Assembly: GCA_947476065.1 (NCBI GenBank)
Contig: CANJPG010000005.1
Coordinates: forward strand, 18,657-82,656
Origin: Fidelibacterota bacterium
GTDB lineage: Bacteria; Pseudomonadota; Alphaproteobacteria; Rhodospirillales; Rhodospirillaceae
DNA length: 64,000 nucleotides
Direction of reading: 5' to 3'
Shown here: in pieces, positions 9,741 to 39,013 of the stretch
How positions within the stretch are numbered: position 1 is the first letter of the stretch
How the letters are laid out: the number at the start of each line of letters is the position of its first letter
The notes under the pieces: generated by a model
The model's input: only the letters and a program-made list of their open reading frames with translations
The model's database searches: none
Told to the model about the DNA's origin: nothing
Position numbers and translations under genes: made by a program

Positions 9741-11040
<1,300 letters not shown>

Positions 11041-11079
11041 ATTGCGCCATCCTCGGGACAGCGGGGCTCCTGATAGGAA

Positions 11080-11234
11080 GAATCATAAGAATCAAAGCCT
11101 TACGATTGTTTAATGAGATGCGCAATGAAGTCTGTGGATAACCCCAGATGTTGAGTCCGCCGAGTCGCGGGACTCCACCCCTAGCGGTCGGGGGAGGCGG
11201 TCTGAAATTTTCTGCAGAAATATTTCGGCGAGTC
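11080..11234. promoter_or_regulatory. GANTC cluster and DnaA box upstream of ccrM
   Basis: Six GANTC sites lie at 11080, 11089, 11153, 11162, 11171 and 11230. The first pair and the middle three are spaced exactly 9 bases apart. A perfect DnaA box (TGTGGATAA, reverse of TTATCCACA) is at 11133-11141. The stretch lies between the end of rnhB and ccrM, where the ccrM promoter should be. In Caulobacter the ccrM promoter contains GANTC sites whose methylation state affects expression; a similar role here is inference. Confidence 0.55.
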
Positions 11235-13767: not shown

Positions 13768-14826
13768 TTAAATCAGGCGCCGGGCTGTGAGTTCATCCTT
13801 GAGGTAAGCATAGTATATCGGCGCGGCGATGAGTCCGGGAATCCCAAACGCCGCTTCCATCACCAGCATCGCCGTCAGCAGTTCCCAGGCGCGGGCCCTG
13901 ATCCTGGAGCCGATGATGCGCGCATTCACGAAGTATTCCAGCTTGTGGATGATCACAAGGAAAGCCAGCGAGCCCGCTGCAACCACCGGCGAGTAGCTGA
14001 AGCTGACCACAACGATGACGGTATTCGACATCAGGTTGCCGAGGATCGGGATCAGGCCCACAAAGAACGTCACCGCGATCATCGTCTTGACCAGCGGCAG
14101 ATGAACGCCAAGGGCCGGCAGGATTACGGCGAGATAGATCGCTGTGAGCACAGTGTTCAGCGCCGAGATGCGGATTTGCGAAAACACCACGTTGCGGAAA
14201 GCGCCGCTCAGCACGATCACGCGTGCCAACAGGGCGCGGGACAATGGGCGCATCTCGTCGTCGCCGACACCGCGATAGAAGGCGACGATGCCGCCAATGA
14301 TCAGGCCGAGCAGCGTGTGGAACAACAGCTTGCCGAAGTCCTGGCCGAAGGCGCCCAGTTGCCCCGCATGTTCACGCAGCCACTTCGCGGCGGCGGCCTC
14401 GAGATCCTGCATGCTGGCCGGAATGTAGTTGTGGGCCCAGGCCGGCGTGCGCTCGCGGGCCGTGCTGATGACGTCGGCCATCTGCTGGAGGAGCGCGACC
14501 ACACTCTCCGACCCGCCGGTCAGCAATGAGATGGACTGAATCACGCCGAGGGCCGCGGCCACCCCGATGATGGAGGCAAAAAGGATCAGCACCAGCGCCT
14601 TGCCGGTACGCCGCGTCAGGCCCAGGGCCCTGAACATCGGCGCCGCCGATTGCACGAGCAGGTAAATGAACAGGCCCGCCAGCAGCGCCGACAGCAGTCC
14701 AAGCTTCAGCGCGCCGACCAGGGCCAGGCCCATCAAGATCAGCGACGCGATCTCCATGCGCTGGGTGTCGGCGGGCAGTCCGACAGGCGGCGGCTGCAAG
14801 ACGGGCGGCTCGGTGTTGGTCGACAT
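13768..14826 (-). CDS. AI-2E family transporter (PerM-like)
   Basis: A 352-residue inner-membrane protein of the AI-2E transporter/UPF0118 family with about eight membrane segments. It shows early hydrophobic helices (residues about 26-60 and 76-100), a long periplasmic or cytosolic loop with [14 protein letters not shown], and the C-terminal helices around [16 protein letters not shown]. Most members are exporters or permeases of unknown substrate; autoinducer-2 export was shown only for a few, so the name should not be taken literally. It is followed at once by the glycosylase gene. Confidence 0.85.
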
Positions 14827-24191: not shown

Positions 24192-24561
24192 CTGGCGAAA
24201 GTTACACTGCAATGCAGCAGAAAGCCTTGAAAACCGGTCCTTGGATGCGCCGGACATGCCACTTAGGCCCGTAGATTCACGATTCAATTCAACAACTTAT
24301 CAATGGCTCTTAAGCCGCGCTGTGATTTTTCCGCGCGATTTATACACAGGCCAAAATCGGCGCGACGTGCAGAATCACCCGTCAAATTGGGGCTTTGTTG
24401 CAGGCCAAGCGGCCGGCGAAAAAATGCCCTGATGCAAGAAATATCGAAAAAGTAGGCCTAAAACGCATTTTTCGACGCTGCGGCGCTTGCGTCCGGCAAG
24501 CCATTGTGATTCTCTCCGCAGCGCAGTTGATACTTCATTCTTCGAGAAAAGGACCGAAACA
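24192..24561. other. 370-base intergenic region before the HU-like gene
   Basis: No convincing gene. It is more AT-rich than its flanks and holds the pair GATTC-AC-GATTC at 24274-24285, also found at 38312-38323. It must carry the promoter of the HU-like gene; no clear -35/-10 pair could be chosen. Confidence 0.5.
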
Positions 24562-37994: not shown

Positions 37995-38219
37995 ATGGTG
38001 ACGCTGACCGACGACCAACGCGGATTGATCGACTACCTAGCCGACAAGGTGCACGAACTGACGGCCTCCGCCACGGGAACCACGGGCGTCGAGGCGACCG
38101 ACCTCATGCGGGAAGCCCAAGAGCTGACGGCGATCCGCGGCAGCATCATCGACCGCGCCCATGCGGCCGAAAATGCCGCCCAGCTGCAATTACCGCTCGA
38201 ATTGAGGAAGGCTGCCTAA
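37995..38219 (+). CDS. Small hypothetical protein
   Basis: A 74-residue protein beginning MVTLTDDQRGLIDYLADKV, predicted mostly helical, ending LPLELRKAA. No family is recognised. The ATG at 37995 is preceded by GAGGGG with good spacing; a longer open frame starts at 37809 but lacks a site. It has its own terminator, so it is a monocistronic unit, divergent from nrdA. Confidence 0.6.
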   Translation: MVTLTDDQRGLIDYLADKVHELTASATGTTGVEATDLMREAQELTAIRGSIIDRAHAAENAAQLQLPLELRKAA

Positions 38220-38249: not shown

Positions 38250-38277
38250 AACCCGGCCCTCGCGGCCGGGTTTTTTA
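38250..38277 (+). terminator. Terminator after the 74-residue gene
   Basis: Nine-pair stem, arms 38250-38258 and 38264-38272, running into TTTTTT. A smaller hairpin ACTCG/CGAGT precedes it at 38229-38242. Confidence 0.9.
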
Positions 38278-38378
38278 TTGTCCGCGCTTTAGAGGCGCGG
38301 AAATTAAGAAAGATTCACGATTCGTTAACGGCTCCCGGGAAAGATGCGGCTACGGATTTAACGCTGGGGCATTTCTCC

Positions 38379-38400
38379 TCCCTCCCCACCCCACAACCCC
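38379..38400 (+). repeat. 22-base C-rich repeat, copy 2
   Basis: Identical to 10961-10982. Here it lies in the loop and 3' arm of a hairpin. On the minus strand it forms a potential G-quadruplex. Confidence 0.85.
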
Positions 38401-38410
38401 AGCAAACTCA

Positions 38411-38445
38411 GCGGCGGATCTTTTAGATCCGCCGCCTTTCTTTTT
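38411..38445 (+). terminator. Intrinsic terminator of the sRNA candidate
   Basis: Perfect ten-pair stem GCGGCGGATC (38411-38420)/GATCCGCCGC (38426-38435), loop TTTTA, then CTTTCTTTTT. Confidence 0.93.
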
Positions 38446-38446
38446 A

Positions 38447-38493
38447 GGGCGCGCAGCGCCCGGCGGATCTTTTAGATCCTCGGCCTTTCTTTG
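38447..38493 (+). repeat. Small hairpin and degenerate second copy of the terminator
   Basis: A six-pair hairpin GGGCGC/GCGCCC (38447-38461) is followed by CGGCGGATCTTTTAGATCC and CGGCCTTTCTTTG (38461-38493), a near copy of the terminator with its outer pairs spoiled. It lies in the upstream region of the next gene. Confidence 0.75.
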
Positions 38494-38506: not shown

Positions 38507-39013
38507 ATGATTTATTTCGCCTACGGCGCCAATCTCAATCTGCGCGGCATGAAGCGCCGCTGTCCGAAAGCCCGGCCGCTGATGGCTGCAACTCTGCCGG
38601 GCTATCGGTTCGAGTTCCGCACCTTTGCGACTATTGTCGCCGATGCACAGGCGGAAGTGCCGGGCGCGTTGTATGAGCTGACGCCGGCCTGCTGGCGCGC
38701 GCTCGACGGCTATGAAGGGCCCGAATACAAAAAGATCACTGTGACGGTGAACACCGCCGAAGGCCCGCGCGAGGCCACTGCCTACATCATGGCGAGCGGC
38801 AAACGCGCGGCGCCGTCTATGGCCTACTGCGGCGACATCGCGCGCGGCTACAGCGATTGGAAGCTGGACGCCAAGCTGTTGCAGCGGGCGCGCTACGCCA
38901 CGCTGTTTCCCGATAAGCCCGAGAGAGTGAGGCAAGAATCTACGCGGCCAGGCCCTGCACCGCCAGGATTCGCGAGGCCCGGAGTCACTAGGCCGGTGAA
39001 GGAGACGCCGTAA
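38507..39013 (+). CDS. Gamma-glutamylcyclotransferase-like protein
   Basis: A 168-residue protein. The N-terminal MIYFAYGANLNLRGMKRRCP is the YGxNL signature of the gamma-glutamylcyclotransferase (AIG2-like) fold; ALYELTP and LDGYEGPEY supply the expected glutamate region. Members cleave gamma-glutamylamines or release 5-oxoproline; the substrate here is unknown. The last 35 residues are proline-rich and overlap the convergent flippase gene by 26 bases, so the tail may be recent. The ATG at 38507 has only a weak ribosome site. Confidence 0.8.
   Translation: MIYFAYGANLNLRGMKRRCPKARPLMAATLPGYRFEFRTFATIVADAQAEVPGALYELTPACWRALDGYEGPEYKKITVTVNTAEGPREATAYIMASGKRAAPSMAYCGDIARGYSDWKLDAKLLQRARYATLFPDKPERVRQESTRPGPAPPGFARPGVTRPVKETP

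Follow-up and report, generated by a model that had tools for sequence, protein, structure and literature searches.

A predicted lineage-restricted small RNA with a C-rich loop and a putative pairing site in the ccrM leader

Introduction

A C-rich hairpin followed by an intrinsic terminator lies between two genes in the 64,000-nt stretch of DNA analysed here (the window), and an earlier note made from the letters of this stretch proposed it as a candidate small RNA (sRNA) with a transcription unit of its own. The locus raises two questions, whether it is a gene in its own right and, if so, which messages its RNA would act on. The window also holds ccrM, whose product sets the timing of gene expression across the alphaproteobacterial cell cycle. 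The host group is known here from metagenome assemblies.

Results

A terminator-bounded hairpin between two genes

The features of the locus and of the ccrM region are listed in Table 1. The hairpin arms (GCTGGGG and CCCCAGC) enclose a C-rich loop with CTCCTCCC at 38375-38382, and both the arm positions and the loop length of 27 nt are those given in the earlier note. The terminator had been described as a perfect ten-pair stem with a U tract; the terminator itself holds, with eleven pairs instead of ten, its stem-loop at 38411-38435 reading GCGGCGGATCT-TTT-AGATCCGCCGC and continuing with CTTTCTTTTT. The upstream gene has its own terminator at about 38250-38279, and the locus does lie, as had been noted, between this terminator and the start of the next gene.

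Table 1 Features of the sRNA locus and the ccrM region in the window
Feature	Position	Strand	Remark
ccrM, DNA adenine methyltransferase	9741-10853	-	N6_N4_Mtase and RAMA
E2, second conserved element of the ccrM leader	10921-10934	-	UCUCAGGGACGCAU here
E1, G-rich element of the predicted ccrM leader	10956-10982	-	5'-GGGGUUGUGGGGUGGGGAGGGAAGAAG-3'; proposed sRNA target
Paired GANTC sites	11080-11093	-	likely ccrM promoter
Upstream small gene	37995-38219	+	74 aa, without Pfam match
Promoter-like block TTAA-N4-GATTC-N8-TTAA	38304-38328	+	conserved; single occurrence in the window
Two GANTC sites (GATTCACGATTC)	38312-38323	+	expected CcrM methylation sites
AAAGATGCGG	38340-38349	+	GATG here in 11 of 16 loci of genera g1 and g9
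sRNA hairpin	38363-38403	+	arms 38363-38369 and 38397-38403, loop 38370-38396
Inferred seed UCCCUCCCCACCCCACAACCCC	38379-38400	+	extends 4 bases into the 3' arm
Intrinsic terminator	38411-38445	+	interrupted U tract; predicted sRNA 3' end
Downstream gene (ggct)	38507-39013	+	gamma-glutamyl cyclotransferase/AIG2-like (GGACT)

The region 38282-38445 folds at -60.6 kcal/mol in RNAfold (z = -4.19; 0 of 200 shuffles as stable), much of this energy coming from the terminator and from a hairpin at 38282-38300. We infer an RNA 5' end near 38340-38349, with transcription from about 38345 and a predicted sRNA length of about 100 nt. A simple scan of the locus returned no sigma-70 consensus promoter. The exact 8-mer CTCCTCCC was rejected as evidence, its single occurrence in the window being within chance (2.17 expected). 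Between the first terminator and ggct, an imperfect second terminator copy (CGGCGGATCTTTTAGATCC...CTTTCTTT) was observed at 38461-38492 on the plus strand, and a comparable doubling is present in G013 (L015).

Conservation and covariation in relatives

When the own genome and 60 relatives were searched at the DNA level, the locus region was recovered, whole or in part, in 16 of the 60. The recurrent order was a GATTC-N8-TTAA block, a hairpin with a loop built around UCCCUCCCCACCC, a short linker that often reads AAACUC, and then a GC-rich terminator, after which the U tract is mostly interrupted. The stems of both the hairpin and the terminator covary: among 26 sequences, 11 of the 17 stem pairs had changes on both sides, with 53 both-side-change cells versus 13.1 ± 3.4 in shuffles and 1-6 with the partner slid. 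This alignment was fitted to the structure, and a MAFFT alignment of 17 sequences agrees (27 cells versus 7.5 ± 2.1 in shuffles). The arms occur as GCTGGGG/CCCCAGC, GCTAGGG/CCCTAGC, GCTGAGG/CCTCAGC and GCCGGGG/CCCCGGC, and when re-extracted without a model they show pair 3 changed from UA to CG and pairs 4 and 5 from GC to AU. The conservation, with stem changes on both sides, is what exceeds chance at this locus, unlike the count of the 8-mer. The earlier note had proposed a comparison with related genomes for conservation and compensatory changes, and in this comparison the loop and stems are kept and the stems covary.

Among the matches listed by Infernal for 297 genomes drawn from the order, those of at least 50 bits were found only in family f1, and the best match in 384 other genomes of the class reached 39.1 bits. 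Some covariance-model match was obtained in 196 of the 297 genomes, mostly below 40 bits, and these were not counted as homologues. Such sub-40-bit matches were inspected at eleven places (L222 viewed off-position) and look like unrelated terminators, one of the weak matches being SorX-like, though below the cut-off of the SorX family; five further ones included a diverged homologue in G022 (39.1 bits) and a phoH-downstream element (G024:C17). The related public records are metagenome assemblies with discordant labels, and 13 of 23 stretches from them scored above 80 bits, the other ten having at most 24 bits or no match at E 0.01.

The gene ggct follows the sRNA in 18 of 25 loci; in the other seven it does not occur within 1500 nt. 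The hairpin and the GATTC-N8-TTAA block are kept without ggct and without any intervening ORF in G010, G026, G019, G272 and G304. Because block, hairpin and terminator persist while the neighbours and the intervening ORF vary, they behave as one unit. A stand-alone gene for a trans-acting sRNA is well supported by this comparison of sequences, given its own conserved promoter-like block, its conserved structure with covarying hairpin and terminator, the intrinsic terminator and its independence of neighbours such as ggct, and the proposal of a small RNA with its own transcription unit is borne out to this extent.

A small ORF that comes and goes

Nine of 25 loci have a small ORF of about 64-80 aa between the promoter block and the hairpin (e.g., L003 1275-1508, L004 1282-1485, L007 1302-1502 and L013 1278-1490), and there is none in this window, where a five-codon ORF at 38344-38361 is left at its place. 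Seven of the nine begin with M-x-RTE(Q/K)S; neither Pfam nor NCBIfam has a family that fits the seven scanned, the lone Pfam match having E = 0.19. Loci lacking the small ORF are those of this window, G010, G014, G026, G002, G006, G012 and three g2 genomes, and in nine ORF-less loci from three genera (G014 excepted) the GATTC lies 43-66 nt from the hairpin start. The gap between block and hairpin is 157-276 nt in genus g7 and G035, also without a small ORF, and no GATTC-N8-TTAA block was found in G282. On the ccrM tree (22 rows with an ORF state, 10 without) the presence of the small ORF is scattered, with 6 changes of which at least 2 are forced by well-supported branches, and the hairpin is constant. 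Whether or not this ORF is present between the promoter block and the hairpin, the sRNA unit persists.

GANTC sites in the promoter-like block

In 23 of 24 loci a GATTC-N8-TTAA block lies ahead of the hairpin, with the additional TTAA-N4 in 16 of these 23. The first GATTC is found in the same 23 of 24 loci and a second GANTC 7 bp further on in 12 of 23. Across the window (1-64000), GANTC is depleted (117 versus about 210 in composition and block shuffles). Six close GANTC pairs were found against 4.9 expected by composition, so that the number itself is no signal; such pairs lie at the sRNA block, in the ccrM promoter region and upstream of a gene for an HU-type DNA-binding protein. The last of these places has a further GATTCACGATTC at 24274-24285 (plus strand), possibly a second promoter under the same control as the sRNA.

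In Caulobacter, CcrM methylates GANTC and GcrA reads these sites. This control is summarised in PMC8959179 and PMC5988900 (both in excerpt), and a promoter table in the latter has GANTC upstream of several Caulobacter ncRNAs. Both GcrA and Hfq are encoded in the genome analysed here. By analogy, CcrM would methylate the GANTC sites of the sRNA block and GcrA would read them, and the presence of two such sites in the promoter block suggests feedback.

Relation to known sRNA families

The loop had been described as anti-Shine-Dalgarno (anti-SD), which is incomplete as a description. All 26 loops carry CCUCCC, 24 carry CCCUCCCC, 19 carry UCCCUCCCCACCC and only 8 carry CUCCUCCC, and CCUCCUCCC and UUUCCUCCCU are found in one and none, respectively. 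The conserved UCCCUCCCCACCC reaches further than an anti-SD, and a site upstream of ccrM is complementary to it. The impression that this copy belongs to no recognised family was correct with respect to the models for ar14, CcsR1 and suhB/mmgR, all of whose cut-offs it misses; in the Infernal comparison with alpha-r14 and CcsR that the earlier note had suggested, it scored 15.6 and 14.6 bits against cut-offs of 58.8 and 65.3. In Rfam scans, only a tRNA reaches any cut-off in the window, and none of 20 sRNA loci does.

Membership of alpha-r8/suhB (RF00519, mmgR) was rejected at 16.9 bits versus a gathering score of 41, the alpha-r8 core, the 10-mer UUUCCUCCCU, being in 0 of 26 loops. The RNA resembles alpha-r8 (MmgR, Caulobacter SisA-D) as a short alphaproteobacterial sRNA with a terminator, an unpaired CCUCCC-containing stretch and predicted pairing with G-rich mRNA sites. 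The alpha-r8 core is single-stranded downstream of a weak hairpin (PMC12559287, in excerpt), whereas the C-rich stretch here is inside a predicted hairpin loop. The usual linkage of alpha-r8 is to the gene for FGase (N-formylglutamate amidohydrolase), whereas genes for a 74-aa protein and a GGACT protein adjoin here; the Caulobacter paralogues SisB-D sit elsewhere in the genome (same source).

Membership of alpha-r14/NfeR1 (RF02344) and of CcsR/CIN1 (RF02791) was likewise rejected on the scores given above, with the alpha-r14 motif CCUCCUCCC in a single loop, and the RF02344 cut-off was reached nowhere in any of 37 genomes. As in alpha-r14/NfeR1 and the cuckoo RNAs, a C-rich anti-SD-like sequence is in the unpaired part of a hairpin, but there is one such hairpin here and there are three in alpha-r14, each with CCUCCUCCC (PMC10746234, in excerpt). 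The small-protein gene between block and hairpin at nine loci recalls the ccaF1-CcsR arrangement of CcsR/CcaF1; however, CcsR is co-transcribed with an upstream DUF1127 gene, and DUF1127 was not found in the seven small ORFs scanned, the window has no such ORF, and the hairpin here is single. The likeness to CcnA and EcpR1 lies in the proposed mode of action, loop pairing with the leader of a cell-cycle master gene, their targets being ctrA and gcrA, or dnaA and gcrA (PMC8959179 and PMC4414408, in excerpt). We take the locus to represent a new sRNA family that is restricted to this lineage and belongs to a known kind.

Complementarity to the ccrM leader

Over 22 contiguous nt, positions 38379-38400 of the sRNA are complementary to 10961-10982 of the predicted ccrM leader. 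The whole duplex is predicted to comprise 27 pairs, with two bases of the sRNA bulged out, and for pairing to reach past the loop the sRNA stem has to open in part. With one mismatch allowed, the 14-mer TTCYCTCCCCACCC has two occurrences in the 3.26-Mb genome: one at the sRNA, the other at 10960-10973, antisense to the predicted leader of ccrM. The duplex energy for ccrM (-56.7 kcal/mol) ranks first of 56 called genes of the window, the next being -34.1; the genes were called greedily and are approximate, the region used was -150 to +90 around each ORF start, and the annotated ccrM start gave the same energy. Among 6394 window segments, only the sRNA's own antisense scores above the ccrM site. 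In genus g1, all nine exact 14-mers on ccrM-bearing contigs lie 5' of ccrM and antisense to it, and a tenth (G004) is at a contig end.

Upstream of ccrM its frame remains open across E1 as far as a GTG at 10976 (10854-10976, minus strand); aligned relatives have indels there, so this stretch is probably leader, a longer start being less likely.

E1 was present in 22 of 41 ccrM leaders fetched, and 19 of these 22 genomes have the sRNA (the own genome included, and for G004 with E1 taken from another contig, its leader being cut). The 19 belong to this genus and three others of the family, and the co-occurrence of E1 and sRNA could stem from one shared ancestry. The uninterrupted complement is 13-22 nt in 15 of the 19 genomes (13 nt in G004, 15 nt in G288) and 9-11 nt in G002, G003, G006 and G012. 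Five of the 19 genomes whose leaders lack E1 still have the sRNA (G019, G272, G282 and G304 of genus g2, and G022). Conserved complementarity to ccrM is strong in g1, g7, g9 and g18 and absent in g2 and G022. Conversely, the sRNA was not found in three genomes with E1, G005 and G017 (71% and 76% complete, searched by DNA and a strict pattern) and G008 (the only one of the three for which the covariance model is listed); these negatives are soft, since the G005 and G017 assemblies are incomplete and the strict pattern also misses G288, which has the sRNA.

When sRNAs and leaders were swapped among 18 genomes, own pairs were better by a mean of 2.8 kcal/mol after removal of row and column means (p = 0.00015, 20,000 permutations, the relatives not being independent), and for only two of the 18 sRNAs was the own leader top-ranked. 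In 17 of 21 leaders, E1 has a higher predicted degree of pairing than the leader mean, and this pairing may weaken access. Four close G runs in 10 of 21 leaders raise the possibility of a G-quadruplex in E1, which is predicted to form in only two.

A second candidate sRNA downstream of phoH

A further candidate sRNA was found downstream of phoH in the own genome (G000:C42), with a seed at 14526-14543 on the plus strand (L103 1027-1044). Its 18-base seed GTGCGTCCCTGAAACTTG is present exactly in 18 of 41 genomes and with a single mismatch in another three; all of these belong to family f1. The element E2 fits this seed in 30 of 41 leaders, with 48 wobble-compatible and 12 incompatible departures, counts that are biased by selection because the fit score favours wobble. 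In 19 genomes with both, the best leader duplex of the phoH-downstream sRNA includes E2, and in 13 of them this duplex is better than any of 60 shuffles (not in G000, G001, G002, G009, G014 and G015). The pairing is weak in the own genome (-33.1 versus -34.1 for shuffles; eighth among window segments) and near perfect in G019 and G022.

Discussion

Alternative explanations

The C-rich loop might instead mark a general anti-SD sRNA like alpha-r8 or alpha-r14 that silences many mRNAs, with ccrM as a fortuitous or minor target. The CCUCCC of every loop, the CUCCUCCC of eight, and the genomes that have the sRNA without E1 (genus g2 and G022) fit this, as does the broad regulon that the alpha-r8 siblings repress through an anti-SD 10-mer (PMC12559287, in excerpt). 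We nevertheless consider it unlikely, as the core UCCCUCCCCACCC of 19 of the 26 loops is longer than an anti-SD and ccrM lies more than 20 kcal/mol beyond every other called gene of the window. The position of E1 far from the ribosome site and its long complement would also suit a sponge, in which E1 titrates the sRNA and the ccrM message controls it; CrfA acts as a sponge RNA against the anti-SD sRNAs SisA-D (PMC12559287, in excerpt). The sequence gives nothing to separate such a sponge from a target, and we rate the sponge as improbable.

Two further readings concern the two loci themselves. The C-rich copy at about 10940-11045 might be not a target but a sibling sRNA on the plus strand, with the same seed and antisense to the ccrM leader; a T run follows it on that strand in many of 13 aligned genomes. 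But this run is absent in G002, G006 and G012, no conserved promoter-like block was seen to the left of the copy, and the block with two GAATC to its right fits a minus-strand ccrM promoter, leaving a sibling sRNA distinctly improbable. A cis element at the sRNA locus, such as an attenuator or a structure in the 3' UTR belonging to the flanking genes and lacking any function in trans, is the least probable of these explanations: a small ORF does precede the hairpin at nine of 25 loci and ggct does follow it at 18, yet hairpin and block are kept in the five genomes named above that have neither, and the loop is conserved, not the stems alone.

Proposed mechanism

We tentatively favour, at somewhat below an even chance, that the sRNA pairs through its seed with the predicted ccrM leader and lowers CcrM synthesis. 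A ccrM mRNA starting at the conserved GANTC-bearing block further upstream would include E1, and the seed would then pair with E1 in the cell. With E1 about 100 nt ahead of the start codon, the ribosome site would not be covered; the effect would be to repress ccrM, with translation blocked or the RNA cleaved. A precedent is EcpR1, whose site for repressing gcrA lies a long way upstream of the gcrA RBS (PMC4414408, in excerpt). In vitro, the CCCC loop of CcnA confers protection on GGGG in the leaders of both ctrA and gcrA, although a CcnA loop mutant failed to rescue mutant targets (PMC8959179, in excerpt). The sRNA loop may also silence other mRNAs via their Shine-Dalgarno sequences.

A feedback loop would be closed if CcrM methylation, together with GcrA, controlled the sRNA promoter. 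The full scheme, in which CcrM methylates the sRNA promoter, the sRNA shuts off CcrM via a duplex of 22-27 bp and the phoH-downstream sRNA joins at the same leader to form a two-sRNA hub, is doubtful as a whole.

Significance

No sRNA acting on ccrM is named in the title or abstract beginning of any paper listed by searches of open-licence PMC, nor reported in the excerpts of PMC8959179, PMC5988900, PMC6146029 and PMC4414408, and the target table excerpted from the Caulobacter prediction study PMC5988900 names no ccrM. A conserved sRNA with a precise predicted site in ccrM and with CcrM sites in its promoter block presents a directly testable feedback design. If the full scheme is true, DNA methylation and its methyltransferase would be tied together by RNA, and the ccrM leader would be a two-sRNA hub of cell-cycle control.
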